A stretch of DNA of 58,538 nucleotides, from the NCBI GenBank assembly GCA_020348925.1, contig CP070758.1:4132948-4191485 (forward strand), read 5' to 3'. Source of the DNA: Gemmatimonadota bacterium (GTDB lineage: Bacteria; JBHIER01; G020348925). Shown in pieces: positions 1 to 14,658 of this stretch. The position numbers and the translations under genes are program-made. The notes beneath the pieces were generated by a model, which saw only the letters and a list, made by a program, of their open reading frames with translations, was not told the DNA's origin and did no database searches. Positions within the stretch are counted from its first letter, which is position 1, and the number at the start of each line of letters is the position of its first letter.

Positions 1-608
1 GATGCTCCGGGCACGTTCTCTACAGGACAGCCGATTTTGCCAACTTCAAAAATCTGGCTCATCATAATCTTGAAATGATCAAGGAGAGCGGGGCCAGGTG
101 CGTCGTCTTCTCCTGCCCGGAGGGGTACGCCACCTTCAAGCATCTCTATCCGAAATTCTTCAGGAAACTGAAATTTGACATCGTCCATATTATCGAACTG
201 GTAGCTAACAGAGTAAAAAGTGATGAAATCACATTGAAAGAGAATCATGGTAAAGTGACGTATCAGGATCCGTGCCGTTTGGGGCGATTCATGGGCATCT
301 ACGATGAGCCCAGGACAATTTTGAAGGGGATCCCGGGTATTGAATTTCAGGAAATGGCCCGCAGCGGTCCTGATGCCCTGTGCTGCGGGTCCAGCGGCTG
401 GATCAACTGCACCCGGGTCAACAAGAAGATTCAGATCGAGCGGCTCAAGGAAGCCCTTGACACCGGCGCTGAGACACTGATCACAGCCTGTCCCAAGTGC
501 AACATCCATCTGAGCTGCGCCATGCGGGACGATCCTGATGTGAACATTGTGATAAAAGATATGACCACACTCTTAGCGGAGTCCTTAGGAGGAAAACGTG
601 CCAAGTGA
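1..608 (+). CDS. HdrB/HdrD-like CCG-domain iron-sulfur protein, 5' partial
   Basis: The reading frame is open from base 3 and the start lies off the window, so only about 200 C-terminal residues are visible. It begins with CSGH and continues with SCPEGY, PCRLGR, ALCCG...GW..C and TACPKC, the cysteine spacing of the CCG domains that bind the non-cubane 4Fe-4S clusters of heterodisulfide reductase HdrB/HdrD. In that family this subunit carries the site for disulfide reduction or an equivalent thiol couple. The stop at 606-608 overlaps the GTG of the next gene (hdrA, 598) by 11 bases, so the two are translationally coupled. The physiological substrate cannot be read from sequence; the organism is probably not a methanogen, so it need not be CoM-S-S-CoB. 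The family is clear, but whether the missing part is HdrB-type or a longer HdrD-type with ferredoxin domains is unknown. Confidence 0.85.
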
Positions 609-1905
609 CGTCTTGGTCATCGGTGGCGGAATCGCCGGCATACAGGCCTCACTCGATCTGGCCGAGATGGGCGTTCAGGTCCACATGGTGGAGCGCAAGC
701 CCAGCATCGGCGGGGTCATGGCCCAGCTCGACAAAACCTTCCCCACCAACGACTGTTCCATATGAATTCTGGCGCCGAAGATGCTGGATGCCGGTCGGCA
801 TCCCAAGATCAACATGCTGGCTTACAGTGAAGTGAAAAAAGTGTCGGGGGTGGCCGGGAACTTCACGGTCAAGGTTCTGAAAAAAGCCCGCTACGTCAAG
901 GAGGATATCTGCAACGCCTGCGGTGATTGCCTGGAAAAATGCCCGGTCAGGAAGATTCCAGACGACTTCGACATGGGGCTCCGCAACAGGCGGGCCATTT
1001 ATCTCTACTTCTCCCAGGGCATCCCCGCCGTCATGACCATTGACCAGGACCACTGCATGTATCTCACCAAGGAGAAATGCGGCGTCTGCCAGAAGGTCTG
1101 CCAGAAGGGCGCCATCGACTACGATCAGAAGGACGAGACCCTGAGCCTCGGTGTGGGTGCCATCGTCCTGGCTACCGGACTGGACATCTTCGATCCGGAA
1201 TCCCTGACCCAATATGGCTACGGAAGGTTGCCCAACGTGATCACCGGGCTGGAATACGAGCGGCTCATCAACGCCACAGGCCCCACAGGTGGTCATCTCA
1301 AGAGAAAATCTGACGACCAACTGGCCAAGCGAGTCGCCTATCTGCAGTGCGTCGGGTCCAGGGATCTGAACAACTGCTCCTGGTGCTCCAGCGTCTGCTG
1401 CATGTACTCCATCAAGGATGCCATGCTGGCCCGGGAGCACGATCCGGATGCGGTCTCCTATATTTTCCATACCGACTTTCGCAACGTGGGCAAGTGGTTC
1501 CAGAAGTACGAGATTCGCGGCAGGGAGGAGTACGGCATCAATTACGTAAGGGGCCGGGTGGCTGAAATTTCCGAGGACAAAGATCACAATCCCATCCTCT
1601 GGTACGAGGATACTGAGACACGGGAGGTGAAAAGCCTGACCGTGGACATGGCTGTACTGGCGACAGCGGCCAAACCCAGCGCAGGATCGGACAAACTGGC
1701 AAAACTTTTGGGTGTGAAACTGAATCCGTCGGGATTCGTGAAGACGAACCTCCCCTATCCCACGGACACCAATATCCCCGGGATTTACGCCTGCGGCTTC
1801 TGCCTCGGCCCGGCCGACATTCCGGAGTCGGTGGCCCAAGCCAGTGCCGCCGCCAACCGCGCTGCGGAGGTCGTCTTCAGAAAAGATTTGAAAAAGAGCG
1901 CGTGA
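598..1905 (+). CDS. hdrA: HdrA-like FAD/iron-sulfur subunit, selenocysteine-containing (UGA at 763-765)
   Basis: A GTG start at 598 follows AGGAGG (587-592) with five bases between. Reading through one in-frame TGA at 763-765 gives 435 residues. N-terminal Rossmann motif GGGIAG is at residues 9-14, followed by [22 protein letters not shown], where U56 replaces the cysteine of the usual HdrA motif DCSMC. Next come two 4Fe-4S motifs, the first [11 protein letters not shown] at 105-115, then the QCVGSRD and [11 protein letters not shown] blocks and a C-terminal FAD-fold closure. HdrA is the flavin-carrying hub of Hdr complexes. It lacks the N-terminal extension and C-terminal ferredoxins of long HdrA, so it resembles short HdrA/QmoA-like proteins. 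A perfect 7-bp hairpin lies 21 bases after the UGA. An in-frame ATG at 781 would mislead an automatic caller into a truncated gene. Homology is very strong on both sides of the UGA; Sec insertion itself is inferred. Confidence 0.9.
763..803 (+). promoter_or_regulatory. Selenocysteine UGA codon plus SECIS-like hairpin in hdrA
   Basis: UGA is at 763-765. Bases 786-792 (GGATGCC) pair perfectly with 797-803 (GGCATCC), leaving the four-base loop GGTC at 793-796. Bacterial SECIS elements sit just 3' of the UGA inside the coding region and present a GGU-type apical loop to SelB, which fits. The hairpin also encodes conserved HdrA residues (DAGRHP), so part of it would exist by protein constraint alone. 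Confidence 0.75.
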
Positions 1906-2055: not shown

Positions 2056-3732
2056 ATGGAAGAAATTCGCATAGGTGTTTTCGTCTGCAACTGCGGCACC
2101 AATATCGCCGGTTTTCTGGACACGAAGGCCGTGGCCGAGTACTCCAAGAAACTGCCCCACGTGGTTTTCACCAGAGAAAACCTCTACTCCTGTTCCGAGG
2201 CCGGCGTCACGGACATCAAGAACGCCATTATCGAAAATAAGCTCAACCGGGTTGTGGTGGCGGCCTGCACGCCCCGGACCCACGAGCCCCTCTTCCGGGC
2301 TTCCTGCGAGGAAGCGGGCTTGAATCCCTTCCTCTTCGAGTTCGTCAACATCAGGGAGCAGGATTCCTGGGTCCATAAGAACGAATGGGAGAATGCGACT
2401 GACAAGGCCAAAGATCTCATCCGCATGGGTGTAGCCCGGGCGGCCTACCTCGAGCCGAAGAAGGCCATCATCGCTGACGTTGAGGAGAAGGCGCTCGTCA
2501 TGGGCGGTGGCATATCCGGGCTGAGCGCGGCCCTCTCCCTGGCCGATCGTGGGTTCAAGGTCTATCTGGTTGAAAAAGAGAAGGAACTCGGCGGAATTCT
2601 GAGAAACATCTACCGCATATACCCCTCGAACATCGATGCCGCGGACCTGTTGGCACAGAAAATTGGTGCTGTGAAAGAACACCCCAAAATCGACGTGTTC
2701 ACCTCCTCCGAAGTGTCGGAGGTGAAGGGGTACATCGGCAAATATCAAATCACTATCGAACACAAGAGGGGCAAACCGAAGCAGCTCAATGTGGGCGTAA
2801 TCATTGTCGCCACCGGCGCCTCCGTCCTTGTTCCCGAGGATATGTACAATTACGACGGAAAGAATGTGATCACCCAACTCGAACTTGAACAAAGATTGAG
2901 GGATAATAGTTTCGACGCACAGAACGTGGTCATGATCAAATGCGTCGGGGCGCGGGTGCCGGAACGGGTCTACTGCTCCCGCATCTGCTGCATGACGGCC
3001 ATCAAAAACGGGATAATCATCAAAGAAAAAAATCCAAACGCAAAGGTTTTTATCCTCTACCGCGACCTCATGTGCTACGGCGACGACAACGAGGAGTTGC
3101 TGCGCCAGGCCAAGGAGCACGGTATCCGTTTCGTCGGTTACTCGCTGGAGCATCCGCCGGTTGTCGAGAACGGTACGGTGAACGTTCGGAGCAGCCTCCT
3201 GGGCAAGGAATTGTCCCTCGAGAGCGATTGTGTCGTGCTGGCCACGCCCATAATACCCCAGTCAGGTTCCGGGACCGTCTCGAAGATGCTCAAGGTACCT
3301 CTCGATGAGACGAAATTCTTTTTGGAGGCCCACATCAAACTCCGGCCCGTGGATTTCGCCACAGATGGTATCTACATCTGCGGCACGGCCCACTGGCCGG
3401 CGGCCACCAATGAGAGTGTTGCCCAGGCTTTAGGGGCAGCAGCCCGGGCTTCCATTCCGCTGACCAACAAACAGGTGAACGTCGAGCCCATCGTCTCCAT
3501 GCTTTTCGACGAGGATCTGTGCCGGGGCTGCGGCATGTGCGCCTATCTCTGTCCCTACGGGGCCATTGAAATGATCGAGACGGAGAAAGGCACCAAGGCC
3601 AAAATGATCGAGGTCGCCTGCAAGGGCTGCGGTGTATGCGGGGCCACCTGTTACAAGCGGGCTATTAAGATGAGCCATTACACGAACGAACAGATCGAGG
3701 CCCAGATAGAGGCGGCGTTTGAAGAGAGATGA
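2056..3732 (+). CDS. HdrA-like FAD/iron-sulfur protein, long form with C-terminal ferredoxin domains
   Basis: 558 residues, ATG start. Domains in order: an HdrA N-terminal domain with FVCNCGTNIAGFLD (about residues 8-21) and the AACTPRTHEPLF block; a Rossmann FAD site, GGGISGLSAALSLADRG (about 153-169); the IKCVGAR and CSRICCMTAIKNG block; a closing FAD segment; and two 4Fe-4S motifs, CRGCGMCAYLC and CKGCGVCGATC, in the last 70 residues. It is a complete long HdrA that could wire a flavin to ferredoxin-type clusters. Unlike the upstream HdrA it has no cysteine or Sec at the position after the FAD site (NIYRIYPSNIDAADLL), so the two HdrA proteins are not interchangeable. It lies 150 bases after the first hdrA, with the repeat at 1948-2035 between them. 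Confidence 0.9.
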   Translation: MEEIRIGVFVCNCGTNIAGFLDTKAVAEYSKKLPHVVFTRENLYSCSEAGVTDIKNAIIENKLNRVVVAACTPRTHEPLFRASCEEAGLNPFLFEFVNIREQDSWVHKNEWENATDKAKDLIRMGVARAAYLEPKKAIIADVEEKALVMGGGISGLSAALSLADRGFKVYLVEKEKELGGILRNIYRIYPSNIDAADLLAQKIGAVKEHPKIDVFTSSEVSEVKGYIGKYQITIEHKRGKPKQLNVGVIIVATGASVLVPEDMYNYDGKNVITQLELEQRLRDNSFDAQNVVMIKCVGARVPERVYCSRICCMTAIKNGIIIKEKNPNAKVFILYRDLMCYGDDNEELLRQAKEHGIRFVGYSLEHPPVVENGTVNVRSSLLGKELSLESDCVVLATPIIPQSGSGTVSKMLKVPLDETKFFLEAHIKLRPVDFATDGIYICGTAHWPAATNESVAQALGAAARASIPLTNKQVNVEPIVSMLFDEDLCRGCGMCAYLCPYGAIEMIETEKGTKAKMIEVACKGCGVCGATCYKRAIKMSHYTNEQIEAQIEAAFEER

Positions 3733-3733
3733 C

Positions 3734-4237
3734 AGATAATAGATAGTAGATGGTAGATTGCAGATATTAGATTGTAGATGATTGGAGACATGAGGTGAGT
3801 ATTTTGAATGCAGGATATAAAAAATTGAAAATATACCAACTCGCTCATGAACTGGCCCTTCAAGTTCATAAGATGTCTTTGAAGTTGCCGAAATTCGAAA
3901 TGTATGAAGAAGGTAGTCAGGTCAGACGTTCATCAAAATCCGTATCAAGCAATATTGTAGAAGGTTATTCCCTCAGAAGATACAAGGCAGAATACATTCG
4001 TTACCTTTTTAGAGCATACGCTTCATCTCAGGAAACAGTCGAACATCTCACCTATTTACATGAAACGGAGTCCTTGAAGGATACTCGAATTTATAAGAAG
4101 TTTATAACCAAATATTCTGAATTGAATAAGATGCTTTTCTCATTCATTAGATCAGTAGAAGAAATGCATGAAACAGATTTATTCTCATTTGACAAGGAGC
4201 ATTCCATCAAACATCTGATATCTACTATCTGATATCT
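3734..4237. mobile_element. Inverted-repeat-flanked four-helix-bundle element inserted in the Hdr operon
   Basis: Bases 3734-3751 (AGATAATAGATAGTAGAT) and the reverse complement of 4220-4237 (AGATATCAGATAGTAGAT) match at 16 of 18 positions, bracketing the four-helix-bundle gene and including its stop codon. The 5' flank is also rich in TAGAT repeats. Intervening sequences in bacterial 23S rRNA have the same layout: an S23-family ORF between complementary ends that form a stem. Whether this unit is mobile or is just an inserted gene is inference. Confidence 0.5.
3795..4232 (+). CDS. Four-helix-bundle protein (S23/IVS family)
   Basis: 145 residues from a GTG start at 3795, with GGAG at 3784-3787 as ribosome site. 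The pattern KKLKIYQLAHELALQVHKM...LPKFEMYEEGSQVRRSSKSVSSNIVEGYS matches the small four-helix-bundle family found in rRNA intervening sequences and free-standing in many environmental genomes. The molecular role is not known. It has no evident link to electron transfer and interrupts an otherwise functional operon between hdrA and mvhD. Its codons are AT-rich compared with the GC-rich hdr genes on both sides, consistent with later insertion. Family call is firm; function is unknown. Confidence 0.85.
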   Translation: MSILNAGYKKLKIYQLAHELALQVHKMSLKLPKFEMYEEGSQVRRSSKSVSSNIVEGYSLRRYKAEYIRYLFRAYASSQETVEHLTYLHETESLKDTRIYKKFITKYSELNKMLFSFIRSVEEMHETDLFSFDKEHSIKHLISTI

Positions 4238-4284: not shown

Positions 4285-5082
4285 ATGAGTGAAGACTACA
4301 GACCTAAGATCATCGCCTTCTGCTGCAACTGGTGAGCGTACGGAGCAGCTGATCTCGCCGGGGTAGCGAGAACGCAATATCCAACCGATGTCCGGATCAT
4401 CCGGGTCATGTGCTCGGGGCGGGTCGATCCCGCCTTGGTTATAGATGCATACCTCCACGGGGCAGATGGCGTCTTCGTCGGGGCCTGTCTCCGGGGTGAA
4501 TGCCATTACTCCACCGGAAACCTCGAGGCCGAGGGGAAGATGCTCTTGACCCAAAAAATTCTGAAACAGCTGGGCATTAACCCGGATCGGCTCGTCATGC
4601 GTTGGATGTCCAGCGCCGAGGGGGCCAAGTTCGTCCGCTTCACGACGGAGTTCCAGGACAGTATCAAAGAGCTCGGACCCATGGGTTACAGCGAAGGCAT
4701 CGACAGAAAAGAAATCGAGCTCAAACTGACGGCGGCCAAGAGTGTTGTGGAGAGCAAGAAGGTACGCTGGGTTGTTGGCAAACGGACGGAATTTCTAAAC
4801 GACGGCAACCTCTACGGAGAGGTGTTCACCGAGCACGAGATCAACCGTCTCTTCGAGGAGGTCGTGCTCGACGAATGCATCATTCAGGAAATTCTGATGC
4901 GTACCATGAAGAAGCCGCACACGGTGCACAAATTGTCGGAGCGGATGCATCTCCCGAAATTCAAAGTGCTGCGCCACCTGGCCGACATGAGAAGGATGGG
5001 CCTGGTGAGCCACGTCGGCTTTGACAACAACAGTCCACTCTGGCAGGCCGGAGAAGTGAAAACAGCTGCCGTCTTGAAATAA
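4285..5082 (+). CDS. MvhD-like hydrogenase/Hdr iron-sulfur subunit, selenocysteine-containing (UGA at 4333-4335), with C-terminal winged-helix extension
   Basis: An ATG at 4285 and read-through of TGA at 4333-4335 give 265 residues. The N-terminus FCCNW-U-AYGAADLAG matches the MvhD signature (F-C-C-N-W-C-Y-x-G-A-D), with U17 in place of a cluster-ligand cysteine. Methanogen VhuD proteins are known to carry Sec in this subunit. Residues 1 to about 135 are the MvhD fold, including GADGVFVGAC, GECHY and the MRWMSSAEG block, which passes electrons to the HdrA flavin through a 2Fe-2S centre. The remaining 130 residues contain TVHKLSERMHLPKFKVLRHL followed by ADMRRMGLV, an ArsR-like winged-helix pattern not present in a minimal MvhD (about 140 residues). 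A conventional gene call would start at 4408 and lose the Sec region. No ribosome site of strong quality is seen upstream. Confidence 0.88.
4333..4371 (+). promoter_or_regulatory. Selenocysteine UGA codon plus SECIS-like hairpin in the mvhD-like gene
   Basis: UGA is at 4333-4335. TCTCGC (4353-4358) pairs with GCGAGA (4366-4371) around the loop CGGGGTA, starting 17 bases after the UGA. The distance and a loop containing GGGGU agree with bacterial SECIS features. It is weaker than the hdrA hairpin in stem length. Confidence 0.65.
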
Positions 5083-5084
5083 AA

Positions 5085-5310
5085 TAGAGGTTCCCCTTAT
5101 CAAAGGGACTACCCAAAAAATCCCCCTTATTAAAGGGAGATTTAGGGGGTTGTTAAAATGAAAGAAACACACATTAGTCACTTAGTTTTATATGAACAAT
5201 TGAGATAAATACCTCTCTGTGTCTCCCCTTCATAGGGGAGACAATAAGGAAGTCCCCTTATCAAAGCTTATCCTGAGCCAAGTCGAAAGAGGGGATTCAG
5301 GAAATTGTTG
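5085..5310. repeat. Two dispersed CCCTTT...AAAGGG-type repeats in the mvhD-to-hdrA/gltD spacer
   Basis: Bases 5089-5162 contain CCCCTTATCAAAGGG and CCCCCTTATTAAAGGGAG followed by TTTAGGGGG. Bases 5226-5310 repeat the theme (CCCCTTCATAGGGGAG, CCCCTTATCAAAG...AGAGGGG), with a nested CTTATCCTGAGCCAAGTCGAAAG piece of another short repeat. Related units are at 10160-10230, 12416-12495, 16316-16425 and 17500-17583. They form imperfect hairpins and encode nothing evident. The spacer otherwise looks empty. Confidence 0.65.
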
Positions 5311-5326
5311 AAAGAAAAAACACAGT

Positions 5327-7030
5327 ATGAGTGAAGAAAAGAAAAACGGATCGGTTTTAGTCGTCGGTGCAGGCATTGCGGGCATCCAGTCGGCGTTGGA
5401 CCTGGCCGAGCGGGGGATCAAGGTCTACCTGCTGGATAATGCCCCGGCCATCGGGGGTGCCATGTCCCAGCTGGACCGGACCTTTCCCCATGGCAAACCG
5501 GCCCTGTGCCAGATCAGCCACAAGCTTGACGCTGTCTACCGCCATCCCAACATTGATCTGATAACCAACGCCAATTTAGGACGAATGAAGGGTGAGGTCG
5601 GTAACTTCGAAGTCACCATCCAAAAGGACCCCTTTCGGGTCAACGACAAATGCAACAATTGCGGGGTCTGTGTCCAGGTCTGTCCCATCAAACCCTATGA
5701 TACATTTAATGAAGGACTGACGCTTCGGACTGCCATCGACGTTCAGAACCAGTGTCCTGTACCGCCCATATACAACATCGACAAGGAGACGCCCATCTGC
5801 GTGGAGACCTGCCCGGTCCACATCGACATTAGAAAATATGTAGGTCAGGTGGCCAACGGGCAATTCCTGGAAGCTTTGGCCACTGTTCGAGAGCGGAATC
5901 CGCTGCCGGCCATCTGCGGCCGGGTGTGCAACCATCCCTGCGAGGACGCCTGTAACAGAGGCTGGCAGGATGAGCCCATTGCCATCGACGCGTTGAAGCG
6001 GTTCGTGGCCGACTATGAATTGAAGCTCGCCCGAGAGGGAAAACTTCCCAAGCCCAAGCCGCCAAAGAAGGTCTACAAGGAGAAAGTGGTCATCATCGGG
6101 GCCGGCCCCGCCGGGCTCACCGTGGCCCACGACCTCGCCTTGAAAGGCTACGAATCGACCATTTTCGAGGAAGCCCCTGTCCCAGGCGGCATGCTCTGGC
6201 TGGGTATCCCTGAGTACCGTTTACCACGGGACATCATTCAGACCGAAGTCGATTACATCTGCGACATGGGTGTCGAATTGAAATTGAACACACCCATCGG
6301 TCCTGATCTGACCATCGACGATCTGCTCAAACAAGGTTACAAGGCCGTCTTCATCGGCGTCGGCGCCCACAAGGGATTGAAACTCCGCGTTCCCGGCGAG
6401 GACGATTTTGAGGGTTTTCTTGACTGCATCGTCTTTTTGCGGCGGGTTAATCTTGGCGATCACTCAAAGCCCGGTGAGAAAGTGGTCGTCATCGGTGGTG
6501 GCAACTCGGCCATCGACTCGGCCCGCACGGCCCTCCGTCTGGGCAGCGACGAGGTGACGATCCTCTATCGACGCTCGCGCAAGGAGATGCCGGCCAACCC
6601 GTGGGAGATCGATGAGGCCGAGCACGAGGGTGTGAAGATTCACTACCTGGCCGCACCGGTTGAAATTCTTGGCAAGAACGGGAAGGTCGTCGGCATGAAC
6701 TGCACGCGCATGGAGTTGGGCAAGCTCGACGCCAGCGGAAGGCGCCGCCCCATTCCTGTCGAAGGTTCCGAATTTGAGGTTGAGGCCGACGTGGTCGTTC
6801 CTGCTATCAGTCAGGAGCCTGACATCTCTTTCCTGCACGAGGGACACGGACTGGAGATTTCCAAGTGGAACTCCTTCGTCATCGACTCCCGGACCAAGAT
6901 GACCAACCGGCCAGGTTTCTTCTCCGGTGGCGACGCGGATACAGGACCGTCGGTCGTCATCGAGGCTATTGCCGCCGGCCACGCGGCGGCTAACGGCATT
7001 CACAATTACTTGAGAGAACTGGCAAAATAA
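5327..7030 (+). CDS. HdrA N-terminal half fused to GltD/NfnB-type NAD(P)H:FAD oxidoreductase
   Basis: 567 residues, ATG start. Residues 1 to about 150 match HdrA: VVGAGIAGIQSALDLAERG, then GAMSQLDRTFPHGKPALCQ (only one cysteine where HdrA has DCSMC), then one 4Fe-4S motif CNNCGVCVQVC. From about 155 the chain changes to a glutamate-synthase small-subunit fold: CVETCPVHIDIRKYV and CGRVCNHPCEDACNRG (cluster-binding N domain), GAGPAGL (FAD), PGGMLWLGIPEYRLP, and GGGNSAIDSARTALRLG for NAD(P)H. GltD/NfnB modules move electrons between NAD(P)H and flavin/Fe-S centres. The second half of the HdrA starts the next gene, so the GltD module sits inside a split HdrA. This gives the complex a plausible pyridine-nucleotide port. 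The substrate (NADH or NADPH) is not decided by the sequence. Confidence 0.88.
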   Translation: MSEEKKNGSVLVVGAGIAGIQSALDLAERGIKVYLLDNAPAIGGAMSQLDRTFPHGKPALCQISHKLDAVYRHPNIDLITNANLGRMKGEVGNFEVTIQKDPFRVNDKCNNCGVCVQVCPIKPYDTFNEGLTLRTAIDVQNQCPVPPIYNIDKETPICVETCPVHIDIRKYVGQVANGQFLEALATVRERNPLPAICGRVCNHPCEDACNRGWQDEPIAIDALKRFVADYELKLAREGKLPKPKPPKKVYKEKVVIIGAGPAGLTVAHDLALKGYESTIFEEAPVPGGMLWLGIPEYRLPRDIIQTEVDYICDMGVELKLNTPIGPDLTIDDLLKQGYKAVFIGVGAHKGLKLRVPGEDDFEGFLDCIVFLRRVNLGDHSKPGEKVVVIGGGNSAIDSARTALRLGSDEVTILYRRSRKEMPANPWEIDEAEHEGVKIHYLAAPVEILGKNGKVVGMNCTRMELGKLDASGRRRPIPVEGSEFEVEADVVVPAISQEPDISFLHEGHGLEISKWNSFVIDSRTKMTNRPGFFSGGDADTGPSVVIEAIAAGHAAANGIHNYLRELAK

Positions 7031-7043
7031 AGATATATCGATT

Positions 7044-9455
7044 ATGAAGAAGCCAAAGTTTATTCCTGAATTCAAAGACATCCCGACGAAGCGGAGGAAG
7101 ATGGCGGAGCTCTCCCTGGAGGAACGCCACCTCAGTTTTGAGGAGGTGGAGCTGGGCTTCACCGAGAAGGAGGCGGTTGCTGAGGCGAAGCGCTGCCTGA
7201 GCTGCCGTCGCTGCATCGGCTGCGGCCTGTGTCTGGCCGAGTGCGACCCCCAGGCCATCGTCTACGACCAGAAACCGGAAAAGATCACGCTCAATGTCGG
7301 TGCCATCATTCTCGCTCCGGGATTTGCGGAGTTCGATGCCAAGCGCAAGCGGGACCTGGGCTACGGTAACTCGTTCAACGTCATCACCAGCATCGAATTC
7401 GAGCGCATCCTGAGTCCCACCGGTCCTTACGGTGGTGTCGTCATGCGCCCCTTCGACGGCGAGATTCCGAAGCGTATTGCTTTCATCCAGTGTGTCGGCT
7501 CCCGTGAGGAGGGTCTGGGTGCCAATTTCTGCTCAAACGTGTGCTGCATGTACGCCTTGAAAGAGGCCATTGCCGCCCACGAGAGAATTCCGGATCTGAA
7601 CGTAACCTTTTTCCATCGGGACATCCGCCCGCTGACCAAGGGCTCGGAGGACTATTATCTGAAAGCGAAAAACGATCTCTGCTTCACCTTCAACCGGGCG
7701 AATGTAGATACTATCCAGGAGGATGAGACGACTGGAACCGTCACGGTTGAATACTCGGAGAATGGAACCTCTCAAACTGGCGATTTCGATCTCGTCGTTC
7801 TTTCAGTGGGACTACATACACCCACTGCCGCGAGAAAAGTATTACGCTCGACCCGCATCAGACCGAATAAATACGGTTTCTGCCCGGTCAGTGCTTTTAC
7901 TCCCTTAAATACTCCAAACGAAGGAGTGTATGTCGCCGGCGCCTTCAGCGGTCCCAAGGATATTTCCGAGACCATGGCCCAGGCCAGCGGCGCAGCCGCC
8001 AAGGCCGCGGCCGCTATCTCGGCGAACGGCTCGAGACCCGCACCATCGGAAAAGAGAAAGACAACATTCAAGGATGAAAAAGCACGGATCGGCCTCTTCT
8101 TCTGTCAGTACGGAAATAGCACCCAGGGTAATTTCGATCTTGAAGCGCTGAAAAAACACGCTGAAAAATTGCAGGATGTAATCCACGTCGGCGAAAGTCT
8201 TTACTGCTGCCTCCATCAGGGCAGGCAGGAGATACAAGGCGCCGTGCAGGAGAAAGGCGTCAACAGAATCGTGATAACCCCCTGTTATTCGAAATCCCAT
8301 CATCAGCTCTTCGGAGAACTGGCAGGTGAATTCGGACTCAATCCGGAACACGTCGGAATTGTCGACTTCGGTTTTGGTTGTGGGGATATCGAGGAGGCCA
8401 AAAAGAGCATCGCTCAAGCTATCGAGAACGTCCGGGCAGGAACATCTCAGGAGATAGAGCAGTCAGCACCTGTCCCTGCGGCTTTGGTTCTCGGTGGCGG
8501 TCTCACCGGCATGACGGCCGCCCTCGATGTGGCCGAGCAAGGGTTTGAGGTTCATCTCGTCGATAAGGCGGACACATTCGGCGGACACATGCAGAGTCTC
8601 AGGTATCTCCTCGGTGAAGAAGATCCCATGGAGAAAGTGAAATCGATCATTGAGCGGATTGAAGCCCACGAAAAAATTCACGTACACACACACGCACTCC
8701 TGAAGAAACTCGAGGGTGAAGTCGGACACTTCAAGTCCACTCTTTCAGAAAACGGCACAGAAACTGTTCTCGACCACGGCGTTCTCATTGTCACCACTGG
8801 CGCTTCGACCTACAAACCTGATGAGTTTCACTACGGCAAAGATCAAAACGTTCTAACTCAAACCGAACTTGAGCAGAAATTGAAAGATGGTGAATTCAAG
8901 GGCAAGAACGTCGTCATGATTCAATGCGTCGGATCGCGGGACGAGGCTCATTCTTATTGCAGCCGTATCTGCTGCGAAGAGGCCATCAAAAATACTCACA
9001 AGATTAAAGAGGTGAATACCGAGGCTCAGGTAACAATCCTTCACAGGGACATGAGGGTGTATGGATTCAACGAGGATTATCTCACAGAAGCTGAGGAAAA
9101 GGGTGTCCAATTTATCAGAATGGACGGACCTCCCGACGTGAGCAATACGAATGGTCTGACCGTATCCGTTGTCGATCGATATACAAAGAAAGAGACAAAA
9201 CTCAATCCGGATCTTGTCGTTTTGAGCACAGGACTTGTTCCTTCAGAAAATAACATTGAATTAGCTCGGTTATTAGATATAAAATTGGATAAAGATGGAT
9301 TCTTCCAAGAGGCCGACTCCAAGATGAGACCTGTCGACACGGACAGAGAGGGCATTTTTATCTGCGGCCTCGCTCACTCCCCACAATCCGTGTCCGAAAG
9401 CCTCTCCCAGGCCTCCGCCGCCGCCGGCAAGGTAGGACTCATCCTGGGAAATTGA
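7044..9455 (+). CDS. Tandem HdrA-like FAD/iron-sulfur protein (HdrA C-terminal half plus a second HdrA)
   Basis: 803 residues, starting 13 bases after the HdrA/GltD gene. Residues 1-50 resemble the tail that follows GltD modules (MAELSLEERHLSFEEVELG, then EKEAVAEAKRCLSC). CRRCIGCGLCLAEC is the ferredoxin motif missing from the previous gene, and residues 60-330 are the C-terminal HdrA half (FIQCVGSREE, NVCCMYALKE). A second HdrA follows: IGLFFCQYGNSTQGNFD (about 350), ITPCYSKSHHQLF, a Rossmann site LGGGLTGMTAALDVAEQG (about 484), QCVGSRDEAHSYCSRICCEE, and a closing FAD segment. There are no C-terminal ferredoxins. The layout suggests an ancestral HdrA-GltD-HdrA chain broken into two genes. 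The last gene of the operon; no terminator is obvious after it. Confidence 0.88.
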   Translation: MKKPKFIPEFKDIPTKRRKMAELSLEERHLSFEEVELGFTEKEAVAEAKRCLSCRRCIGCGLCLAECDPQAIVYDQKPEKITLNVGAIILAPGFAEFDAKRKRDLGYGNSFNVITSIEFERILSPTGPYGGVVMRPFDGEIPKRIAFIQCVGSREEGLGANFCSNVCCMYALKEAIAAHERIPDLNVTFFHRDIRPLTKGSEDYYLKAKNDLCFTFNRANVDTIQEDETTGTVTVEYSENGTSQTGDFDLVVLSVGLHTPTAARKVLRSTRIRPNKYGFCPVSAFTPLNTPNEGVYVAGAFSGPKDISETMAQASGAAAKAAAAISANGSRPAPSEKRKTTFKDEKARIGLFFCQYGNSTQGNFDLEALKKHAEKLQDVIHVGESLYCCLHQGRQEIQGAVQEKGVNRIVITPCYSKSHHQLFGELAGEFGLNPEHVGIVDFGFGCGDIEEAKKSIAQAIENVRAGTSQEIEQSAPVPAALVLGGGLTGMTAALDVAEQGFEVHLVDKADTFGGHMQSLRYLLGEEDPMEKVKSIIERIEAHEKIHVHTHALLKKLEGEVGHFKSTLSENGTETVLDHGVLIVTTGASTYKPDEFHYGKDQNVLTQTELEQKLKDGEFKGKNVVMIQCVGSRDEAHSYCSRICCEEAIKNTHKIKEVNTEAQVTILHRDMRVYGFNEDYLTEAEEKGVQFIRMDGPPDVSNTNGLTVSVVDRYTKKETKLNPDLVVLSTGLVPSENNIELARLLDIKLDKDGFFQEADSKMRPVDTDREGIFICGLAHSPQSVSESLSQASAAAGKVGLILGN

Positions 9456-12624: not shown

Positions 12625-12681
12625 AGATAATTATTGAAGAAAAATGAACATTTTTCACCCTTTCACAAAAGGAGGCCATCC

Positions 12682-14658
12682 ATGCTCCGACATGCTCTTT
12701 TACTCGTGGTCGGCGTCTGCCTGCTGTGCTGCTCCCTCCCTGCCCTGGCTGGAGAGATCCACAGGGCCATCGAAGCGGGGGACCTGGCCCGCGTCAAACA
12801 GATCCTGGAAACCGATCCCGGCGCGCTAACCCAGCAGGACGATAACCAGTTCCGCTATCTGCCCATTCATATCGTCGCCGATGTGGGCAACATCGAGATC
12901 GCCCGCCTGCTTCTGGATGCCGGTGCCGATATCGACGCCGGTGACAGCGATAACAGCACCGCCCTGGGTATCGCGGCCATGCGAAGGCACGGAGAATTAG
13001 TTGCCTTTCTCATCGAACGGGGCGCCGATATCAATCACCGCGATCGCAAGGCCGACTGTCCCCTCAGCTTCGCCGCCTACGGCCGGGACGAGGCCATCGT
13101 CCAGCAGCTCCTGGATGCCGGTGCCGATCTCTATTATCGCAGTCCCCAAGGGGAGACGCTCCTGCACGTCGCCAGCGGGCGGGGCCTGCGCGGTTTCGTG
13201 GAGCATCTGCTGGAAAATGGTGCGCAACTCGATGCCCAAACGGGGAACGGCGGCACCCCTCTCGGTTATGCCGCCATGCAGGGACAGGCCGAGATCGTTC
13301 AACTGCTCCTCGATCGGGGTGCCGATCCGAATCCAGCCCAGCCCGGGGAAGTTTCACCCCTGATTTTCACAACCTGGCGGGACCAGACCGAGTGCGCCCG
13401 GATCCTGCTGGAGAAGGGTGCCAACGTCGATCATCTTGCCCATCGAAATTACAACGCTCTGATTTACGCCGCTGAGAACTGCTCGACCGACATGGTCAAA
13501 CTGCTCATCGACTACGGCGCCACCGTGAATCACACCAACGAGGACGGGGAGACGGCCCTGGTCAAGGCCGCTGCCCGAGGACATGCCGAGCTTGTGGAAG
13601 CCCTCTTGACGGCCAACGCCGATCCGAACCTGGGTACTGACGGCGGAGGACGGACAGCCCTGCAGCTGGCCTCAATTGGAGGTCATCTCGAAGCGGTGCG
13701 TCATCTGGCGGCCGGCGGTGCTAACCTGAATGCTGCGACACCGACCGGTGAAACCCCGCTTCATCTCGCCCGGTACTACGGGCACGGCAAGCTCGCCCAG
13801 ATGCTCGCGGAGAAAGGCGCCAAAAGCCGCGGCTCGAAGCATATTAATCGTTGTCTGGAAGCTATAGGTGAGGTGAACAAGGAGGAAGCTGTGGTTTGGT
13901 TCCTGGGCCACAGCGGTTGGGCCGTCAAGACCAAGAACCACCTGTTGATCTTCGATTACTTCTCTGAGGGGGAGAATCCGCTCAAACCGGCCATCTGCAA
14001 CGGGCACATCACTCCCACTGAAATAGCCGACTACAAAGTAGCCGTTTTCGCGTCTCATCATCACGGCGATCATTTCGACGCAGCCATCTTCGACTGGGGC
14101 GATCAGATTGATGACATCACCTACTTCATCGGACTCCAGCCCGAGGACGCACCGCCCTATGTCTTCATGCCAGAGCGGATGGAGAAATCCTTCGGCGATC
14201 TCAAGCTCACCACCATCCACTCCACCGACGCCGGTGTCGGCATGGTGGTCGAGGTCGACGGTCTGACCGTTTTCCATGCCGGCGACCACGCCAACGGCCG
14301 CATCGGTCTCATGGAAGAATTCACAGACGAGATCGATTTTCTGGCAAACCGGGGTCTCAGACCGGACATCTGCTTCATGGGCATCCGTGGCTGCAGTCTT
14401 GGACAGCCGGACGAAGTCAAGGAAGGCATCCACTACACCCTGAAGACCCTCAAACCGAAAGTTTTCATTCCCATGCACGCCCGCGCCCAGGGCCACCTCT
14501 ACCGCGAGTTCATCGACGAATGCCAGCCTTTATTCAAGTCGGTCCAGATGGTAGCCCCTGATAACCGCGGCGATCACTTCGTCTACAAAAAGGGAAAAAT
14601 CGAAGACCCGAAACAGACAGGAATATTCATGGACCGGGCTGATATGGGTGACGAGTAG
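12682..14658 (+). CDS. Exported ankyrin-repeat / metallo-beta-lactamase-fold fusion protein
   Basis: 658 residues. ATG 12682 has AGGAGG six bases upstream. Signal peptide MLRHALLLVVGVCLLCCS ending PALAG (about residue 24); a lipobox-like LLCC is also possible. Residues 25 to about 390 are roughly ten ankyrin repeats (for example ARLLLDAGADIDAGD, TPLGYAAMQGQAEIVQLLL). Residues about 405-658 are an UlaG-like metallo-beta-lactamase hydrolase: FLGHSGWAVKTKNHLLIFDY, HHHGDH (the metal-binding HxHxDH), FHAGDHANG and PMHARAQGH. Ankyrins are protein-binding scaffolds, so the hydrolase may be tethered to a partner in the envelope. The substrate is unknown. A bidirectional terminator follows the gene at 14727-14766. 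Confidence 0.85.
   Translation: MLRHALLLVVGVCLLCCSLPALAGEIHRAIEAGDLARVKQILETDPGALTQQDDNQFRYLPIHIVADVGNIEIARLLLDAGADIDAGDSDNSTALGIAAMRRHGELVAFLIERGADINHRDRKADCPLSFAAYGRDEAIVQQLLDAGADLYYRSPQGETLLHVASGRGLRGFVEHLLENGAQLDAQTGNGGTPLGYAAMQGQAEIVQLLLDRGADPNPAQPGEVSPLIFTTWRDQTECARILLEKGANVDHLAHRNYNALIYAAENCSTDMVKLLIDYGATVNHTNEDGETALVKAAARGHAELVEALLTANADPNLGTDGGGRTALQLASIGGHLEAVRHLAAGGANLNAATPTGETPLHLARYYGHGKLAQMLAEKGAKSRGSKHINRCLEAIGEVNKEEAVVWFLGHSGWAVKTKNHLLIFDYFSEGENPLKPAICNGHITPTEIADYKVAVFASHHHGDHFDAAIFDWGDQIDDITYFIGLQPEDAPPYVFMPERMEKSFGDLKLTTIHSTDAGVGMVVEVDGLTVFHAGDHANGRIGLMEEFTDEIDFLANRGLRPDICFMGIRGCSLGQPDEVKEGIHYTLKTLKPKVFIPMHARAQGHLYREFIDECQPLFKSVQMVAPDNRGDHFVYKKGKIEDPKQTGIFMDRADMGDE

Follow-up and report, generated by a model that had tools for sequence, protein, structure and literature searches.

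The stretch of DNA analyzed in this study, 58,538 nucleotides of contig CP070758.1 of a Gemmatimonadota bacterium (assembly GCA_020348925.1, positions 4,132,948 to 4,191,485; hereafter, the window), carries two adjacent genes, starting at positions 5327 and 7044, whose products are called chain A and chain B. With a probability of roughly 55%, we take these products to form one functional unit, namely, a two-chain fusion of the heterodisulfide reductase subunit HdrA with a GltD-type flavoprotein, which would act in a cytosolic heterodisulfide reductase (Hdr) complex along the electron path proposed below. The HdrA sequence is interrupted by the GltD unit, and the polypeptide is divided at the same place in all 14 genomes in which separate genes were read.

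Domain architecture of chains A and B

An earlier prediction made from the letters of the window (the original prediction) described an HdrA with a GltD/NfnB-type module inserted into it, and its coordinates, genes, and junctions agree with the matches to the HdrA2 and TIGR01318 profiles (Table 1). In the profile search, residues 7 to 163 of chain A correspond to positions 139 to 297 of HdrA2, and residues 155 to 563 correspond to positions 47 to 466 of TIGR01318, the NCBIfam model of GltD (467 positions); the E-value of chain A against the GltD-type model is 3.6e-138. Residues 15 to 57 of chain B match positions 6 to 48 of TIGR01318 weakly (E 7.2e-06), and residues 51 to 326 match positions 284 to 561 of HdrA2, followed by a second HdrA that consists of an N-domain and a thioredoxin reductase (TrxR)-like domain and has no C-terminal ferredoxin. 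HdrA is broken between its two inserted-ferredoxin motifs and, as had been predicted, resumes at the second [4Fe-4S] motif before the further HdrA.

The GltD unit of chain A had been called complete, but the N-terminal arm that bears the RCLxC motif is missing from it. The beginning of chain B, which had been read as the tail of such a unit, is indeed a piece of GltD, but the piece is the N-terminal arm, relocated C-terminally. Aligned with the NfnB structure 4ylf_B, chain A spans residues 44 to 459 (E 1.2e-95) and chain B spans residues 4 to 56. The arm itself (chain B residues 25 to 54) was aligned by phmmer with residues 4 to 48 of 4ylf_B (E 4.7e-06) and with residues 518 to 568 of the StnC-like 9bov_A (E 1.7e-04). 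Because chain A covers the GltD core and chain B covers the GltD N-terminal arm, the inserted unit is assigned as a circular permutation in which the arm, with its RCLxC end, sits after the core. The same order is seen in 9bov_A and StnC (8oh5_C), in which a core at approximately 102 to 499 is followed by an arm at 518 to 568 and 535 to 566, respectively, the arm match of 8oh5_C being weak (E 0.037). The split is located between the core and the arm, i.e., at the permutation point. By these matches, the GltD unit lies within the inserted-ferredoxin domain of HdrA, as in HdrA-GltD fusions; the polypeptide is not continuous, and the pair is therefore a split variant rather than a plain member of that group.

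Table 1. Features of chains A and B and of the preceding genes of the operon
Feature	Positions	Strand	Details
Chain A: HdrA FAD-binding half, first inserted-ferredoxin motif, permuted GltD core	5327..7030	+	567 amino acids
Chain A cluster residues			motif C109, C112, C115, C119; GltD core C158, C162, C201, C205, C209, K224
GltD core in chain A (residues 155-563)	5789..7015	+	FAD motif GAGPAG; nucleotide motif GGGNSA...YRRSR
Chain B: GltD arm, second inserted-ferredoxin motif, HdrA remainder, second HdrA	7044..9455	+	803 amino acids
Displaced GltD arm (chain B residues 25-54)	7116..7205	+	ends in RCLSC; C51 and C54
Second inserted-ferredoxin motif, HdrA resumption point	7212..7244	+	CIGCGLCLAEC; C57, C60, C63, C67
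HdrD-like (HdrCB) subunit, C-terminal part only	1..608	+	PF02754 CCG, E 8.1e-17
HdrA without N-terminal domain	598..1905	+	NF040770, E 9.9e-121; GTG start at 598 is a guess
HdrA with N-terminal domain, TrxR-like domain, and C-terminal ferredoxin, without inserted ferredoxin	2056..3732	+	NF040770, E 5.5e-157
23S rRNA intervening-sequence-type protein gene between HdrA and MvhD	3795..4232	+	PF05635, E 6.6e-24
MvhD with C-terminal extension	4285..5082	+	PF02662, E 5.2e-30

Conservation of the split and single-chain relatives

The 14 genomes with separate A and B genes comprise that of the window and 13 others (L041, which is from G278, L042, L043, L044, L046, L084, L086, L087, L088, L116, L117, L118, and L119), although the contig of L046 holds only the end of A, and B of L086 runs past its contig end. 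The E-value of the GltD match and this recurrence in 13 other genomes indicate that the finding is not due to chance. In the eight split genomes measured, the A-B spacing ranges from -4 to +18 bases, and the frame offset is 0 in four, 1 in two, and 2 in two. In genomes that have both genes in one frame, the dividing stop is TAG in L042, L088, and L117, TAA in L043 and L046, and TGA in L084. A programmed frameshift was rejected because the offsets and the stop codons differ between genomes, which also argues against a single recoded stop. The window has an offset of +1, and the loss of one base from the AAAA run at 7024-7027 would merge its two frames. Seven of the eight genomes of the phylum of G278 match; the six that were read are all split, and the seventh (G394) has a frame of 563 amino acids. 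On this comparison, the split is judged to be real and conserved.

The survey covered 386 genomes from many families, including the window's own (G000), with a threshold of E 1e-140 or better, which omits weaker matches, among them additional single chains in G024 and G040. Twenty-three genomes match, in 21 of which the match starts in the HdrA half. Among these 21, the split form is found in six (G000, G204, G278, G107, G140, and G109) and a chain unbroken across the junction in 18, both forms being present in G000, G204, and G107; two of the 18 unbroken chains (G092 and G292) are cut by a contig end further along. The single-chain homologs for which the original prediction had recommended a search thus exist, and they refute the notion that homologs are always separate HdrA and GltD genes.

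The single-chain paralog in the window's own genome (L012:9107-13540) has 1477 amino acids. Long single chains of this kind contain a second HdrA resembling that of chain B, followed by a C-terminal ferredoxin that is absent from chain B. In a tree of HdrA sequences (this and the GltD tree are of a quick kind, without bootstrap), the second HdrAs of the window, L043, and L046 cluster with seven from long single chains (3 + 7 rows; Shimodaira-Hasegawa-like approximate likelihood ratio test [SH-aLRT], 96), and six of the short single chains (approximately 1130 amino acids) cluster with ordinary HdrAs. In that tree, the row of L041 labeled as a second unit is its first HdrA unit, the labels "typeI" and "noFd" are crude, the long-branched L044 and second unit of L087 are unsurely placed, and the second units of L084 and L088, being below the threshold, are not included. 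Because long and short single chains group differently, the tree suggests that the insertion happened more than once; multiple insertion events were also concluded for archaea (PMC12054007). In the GltD tree, in which the labels of L043, L080, L036, and L006 were set by hand, eight of the nine split rows fall into one set (SH-aLRT 99), with L044 apart. In this divergent relative, an MvhD part is fused ahead of chain A (L044:7425-10557).

Iron-sulfur cluster ligands

Fifteen cluster cysteines (A109, A112, A115, A119, A158, A162, A201, A205, A209, B51, B54, B57, B60, B63, and B67) are conserved in every covering row of an alignment of 8 split and 17 single-chain sequences. The first inserted-ferredoxin motif (A109/112/115/119) is covered by seven split rows and kept in all of them, and the second is kept in 8/8 split and 17/17 single-chain rows; Cys at A197 is variable in the single-chain rows. 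In 2[4Fe-4S] ferredoxins, each cluster is bound by three cysteines of one motif and one of the other; since the two motifs are on separate chains here, each inserted-ferredoxin cluster would be ligated from both chains. For the GltD unit, we take the ligands of the corresponding clusters of dihydropyrimidine dehydrogenase to be Cys79, 82, 87, and 140 for one and Cys91, 130, and 136 with Gln156 for the other, which would map to B51, B54, A158, and A209 and to A162, A201, and A205 with K224, respectively. The alignment register, in which query residue 158 equals chain position 87, supports this mapping. From the ferredoxin rule and the mapping of the conserved cysteines, three of the four [4Fe-4S] clusters are expected to be ligated jointly by chains A and B.

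Type of the GltD unit and residues of the HdrA site

Counted on the alignment, K224 of chain A aligns with K170 of StnC, which coordinates the cluster proximal to the flavin adenine dinucleotide (FAD); NfnB has a glutamate there, and the FAD of StnC is non-bifurcating (PMC10482914). The residue at this position is Lys in 8/8 split rows, Lys in 14 and Arg in 3 of the 17 single-chain rows, and Glu in none. The order of core and RCLxC arm together with this lysine makes the GltD unit StnC-like, and the glutamate ligand at the proximal cluster that marks NfnB is missing. The original prediction had named flavin bifurcation as a possible mechanism; because Lys rather than Glu occupies this position, bifurcation at the GltD flavin is disfavored.

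Arg415 and Arg416 of the nucleotide-binding motif (YRR) are present in 8/8 split and 11/17 single-chain rows; the other six, including the paralog in the same genome, have C-L-E. By the usual features of Rossmann folds, YRR is presumably of the NADP(H) type and CLE of the NAD(H) type; the motif of chain A looks NADP(H)-type, and the enzyme would prefer NADPH, whereas the single-chain paralog with CLE is predicted to prefer NADH. For the archaeal type III HdrA, NADH was favored from a GXGXXG motif (PMC12054007).

Two residues of HdrA, E356 and K409, have been linked to bifurcation (PMC12054007). Their equivalents, B-E120 and B-K173, are both present in the window, where they are predicted to lie near N5 of the FAD, as in electron-bifurcating HdrA, and both are found in 17/17 single-chain rows. 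The position of Cys197 corresponds to A-C61, which is kept in six of the seven split rows that cover it, and the preceding Cys194 is missing in 7/7 split rows.

Operon, NADH module, and hydrogenase-related genes

The genes of the window are in the order HdrD part, HdrA (with TGA), HdrA, PF05635 gene, MvhD (with TGA), A, and B. The HdrD part, in which the C-terminal CCG motif is complete by eye, is 42 to 58% identical to HdrD from residue 179/180 onward in L084, L041, and L087 and from residue 303 in L088, the HdrD open reading frame of which has an MvhD-like N-terminal part. The window begins directly after a 100-N scaffold gap within the HdrD-like gene (N run L011:11849-11948), in which the N-terminal part was lost. 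The PF05635 gene has no space at the same place in L041, L084, L087, and L088 and is probably an intruder that does not belong to the complex.

The plain open reading frames of HdrA (598) and MvhD look truncated because of in-frame TGA codons at cysteine positions. That of HdrA (763-765; CSI-U-ILAPKM, at the Cys197 position) is at the same place in all seven operons compared (the window, L041, L044, L084, L086, L087, and L088), and that of MvhD (4333-4335; CCNW-U-AY, at a conserved Cys position) is at the same place in 6/6. In eight of the ten split genomes, a selenocysteine tRNA gene exceeds the gathering threshold (65.8 bits in the window's own); below the cut-off, the search matches many other places and all 14 controls. 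Scans of the window for Rfam families and tRNAs found nothing. With TGA at a conserved cysteine and the tRNA gene in the genome, both codons probably encode selenocysteine, and HdrA and MvhD are candidate selenoproteins.

At the operon head in L084/L112, L087, and L088, i.e., in three of the five relatives with enough upstream DNA (the other split loci are too short as fetched), NuoF- and NuoG-N-like genes are present, identified by Pfam in L087 only and by BLAST in the others. The genome of the window carries genes resembling NuoE, NuoF, and NuoG-N, together with a fragment of HdrA, at C1:1373606-1378090 between two 100-N gaps (C1:1373506 and C1:1378091), a third gap being just before window position 1; this NuoF is 78% identical to that of L084. 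Synteny with the relatives makes it probable that this 4.5-kb contig and the window operon form a single operon whose two halves were wrongly placed during scaffolding. The GltD module, by which the original prediction had linked the complex directly to NAD(P)H, is probably not the sole nicotinamide entry. At L108:7399-10515, the same genome encodes a 1038-residue fusion of NuoF with a permuted GltD; a NuoG-N-like gene comes next, an arrangement similar to that of Stn. A GltD gene of standard order also occurs in this genome, in the vicinity of a PF02906 gene (L111).

The statement that no hydrogenase, F420, or Flx genes are in view is partly an edge effect of the gap at the window start. As regards hydrogenases, it holds for the [NiFe] type, since PF00374, the family of MvhA, has no match in the window's own genome, the one searched. 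However, a link to a hydrogenase may still exist in relatives: a PF02906 ([FeFe]-hydrogenase domain) protein of 423 to 502 residues lies just downstream of B in five of ten split genomes (L042, L043, L046, L087, and L088), and PF02906 is above the cut-off in eight of the ten; there is no PF02906 gene after B in the window. Where looked at, the five proteins adjoin DRTGG and HATPase genes (in L087:13551-15614, DRTGG, HATPase, and PF02906 genes follow chain B). They contain SSFCP, SSYCP, or LSVCP versus TSCSP in L113 (599 amino acids), and the motif TSC[CS]P is absent, as judged by eye. We take the downstream proteins to be probably non-catalytic, their H-cluster motifs looking degenerate by eye; the set in L087 might serve the operon as a redox or H2 sensor.

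Proposed electron path and alternatives

Besides chains A and B, the proposed complex would contain HdrD, MvhD, and two or more additional HdrA units, of which one is probably a selenoprotein. The GltD FAD would receive a hydride from NAD(P)H, the most likely form being NADPH. From there, single electrons would pass to the proximal [4Fe-4S] cluster (A-C162, C201, C205, and K224), to the distal cluster (B-C51, B-C54, A-C158, and A-C209), and through the inserted-ferredoxin clusters (B-C57/60/63 with A-C119, and A-C109/112/115 with B-C67) to the HdrA FAD, whose site would be rebuilt from both chains. The HdrA flavin, not the GltD flavin, would be the site of bifurcation or confurcation and would share the electrons among ferredoxin as the low-potential carrier, the side of MvhD and the second HdrA, and an acceptor at HdrD that is a disulfide or resembles one. 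The NuoF/NuoG-N module would add NADH in some relatives and probably in this genome. A broader version, put forward only tentatively, is a conserved soluble complex of nine to eleven parts in uncultured bacteria, with an NADH module, an NADPH module, several Hdr flavins, and an HdrD site, in which the flavoprotein chains would be held together by three shared [4Fe-4S] clusters. If this broader version is true, the NADPH electron path exists only on assembly of the chains, and one enzyme links NADH, NADPH, ferredoxin, and a disulfide.

Several observations weigh against the proposed two-chain unit and its electron path. AlphaFold2 models of each chain taken singly have mean predicted local distance difference test scores of 55.6 and 60.0, which are too poor for use in judging the cross-chain clusters, and the ligand pairing of the GltD clusters depends on the assignment taken from structures of dihydropyrimidine dehydrogenase. 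Among the split rows, E120 is kept in only 7/8 and K173 in only 6/8. The N-domain CxC of the second HdrA in chain B (8079-8216, residues 346 to 391) is CxY in 7/7 split rows and intact in 9/9 single-chain rows with that domain; this clade-specific change may leave the N-domain cluster altered, oddly ligated, or lost. Chain B of L044 (298 amino acids) ends after the first HdrA unit and has no second HdrA. No NuoF was found in the upstream DNA of L041 and L044, and the assembly, as it stands, puts the NuoF and NuoG genes of the window's own genome at a distance of 2.8 Mb. DsrC (PF04358), considered as the disulfide partner, was rejected, as it was found in none of the ten split genomes.

The enzyme may instead work mainly by confurcation, with reduced ferredoxin and thiols, or NADH through the Nuo-like module, yielding NADPH at GltD. 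Nfn, Stn, and Hdr enzymes are reversible, and the GltD module, HdrD, and, in some relatives, an NADH module are the parts that such a reaction would use; however, the sequence fixes no direction, and the standard-order GltD of the same genome may already supply NADPH, so that we regard this alternative as possible though doubtful.

A GltD unit that bifurcates in the manner of NfnB would give the protein two bifurcating flavins, and a second bifurcation site was also suggested for the HdrA9-11 proteins of ANME-1 archaea (PMC9012536). The homology of the GltD core to NfnB noted above agrees with this idea, as does A-R298, at the position of NfnB R201 and StnC R239, which is kept in 25/25 rows. 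StnC, however, shares the same arginine, which is therefore non-discriminating; the proximal residue is of the kind found in non-bifurcating StnC in every split and single-chain row; and none of the seven window proteins scanned is NfnA-like. A second bifurcating flavin is thus unlikely.

Somewhat less probable still is a GltD unit that is a non-catalytic structural leftover in an Hdr complex fed by the Nuo-like module or another donor. It would fit the second nicotinamide entry of some relatives, but 8/8 split rows retain intact motifs for the FAD, the nucleotide, and the clusters, and invariant columns run throughout the GltD core. A sequencing or assembly error, with one base missing from the AAAA run, as the +1 offset and the 100-N gaps near by might suggest, is barely credible against the equal cut site in 13 other genomes with their varied offsets and stops and the six split genomes of one phylum, which already exclude such an error for the clade.

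Relation to known systems

The idea of a GltD/NfnB-type module inserted in HdrA was already in print (PMC2702500, PMC9012536, and PMC12054007), as HdrL in 2009, HdrA9-11 of ANME-1 in 2022, and type III HdrA in 2025. Three features are new here: a conserved split that falls at the permutation point, a signature resembling that of StnC, and the operon in which the genes lie; no description of the split form was found in the parts consulted of PMC2702500, PMC9012536, PMC12054007, PMC12142623, PMC10553843, and PMC10482914.

HdrL of Desulfobacterium autotrophicum is a fusion of HdrA and glutamate synthase with an NADH-binding site (PMC2702500), and HdrL is also reported in Desulfurivibrio (PMC12142623). 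Similar to chains A and B, it is a bacterial HdrA-GltD fusion that adjoins MvhD in a selenocysteine-rich Hdr set; compared by its description, it differs in being an unsplit fusion (PMC2702500). HdrA9, HdrA10, and HdrA11 of ANME-1 likewise contain an NfnB-like insertion of approximately 500 residues in the HdrA ferredoxin domain, but these proteins are archaeal, the insertion is within HdrA, and a possible second bifurcation site was proposed for them (PMC9012536). Type III HdrA has GltD in the inserted-ferredoxin region, with NAD(P)H as the proposed carrier, and is likened here by description; it comprises nine archaeal sequences with GXGXXG, whereas the window has GGGNSA (GxGxxA) and YRR (PMC12054007). 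StnC (8oh5) shares the GltD core followed by the RCLxC arm and the Lys at the proximal cluster, but it pairs with a HydBC-type module, is fused to NuoG/FdhF-like domains instead of HdrA, and has no disulfide reductase (PMC10482914). HdrABC-MvhAGD (HdrA, 5odc_A) has in common the HdrA FAD domain with an inserted ferredoxin and MvhD, and differs in its one-chain HdrA, its hydrogenase-fed entry, and the absence of GltD.

The published domain insertion hereby becomes a testable mechanism. The permuted GltD of HdrA fusions appears StnC-like rather than NfnB-like, which argues against a second bifurcation site, and the predictions are at the level of residues (Lys/Arg versus Glu, and YRR versus CLE). 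The natural split at the permutation point provides two chains with which the assembly of clusters across a subunit interface can be tested. The cited papers describe the fusion in archaea and sulfate reducers; here, the fusion and its split form are both seen in numerous uncultured bacteria.

Other features of the window

In the spacer between MvhD and chain A (5083-5326), stretches of 25 to 68 bases recur at seven other places in the genome and are perhaps a small mobile repeat. At 12634-14658, the translation of an open reading frame resembles, by eye, a series of ankyrin-type repeats with a metallo-beta-lactamase-like part after them.

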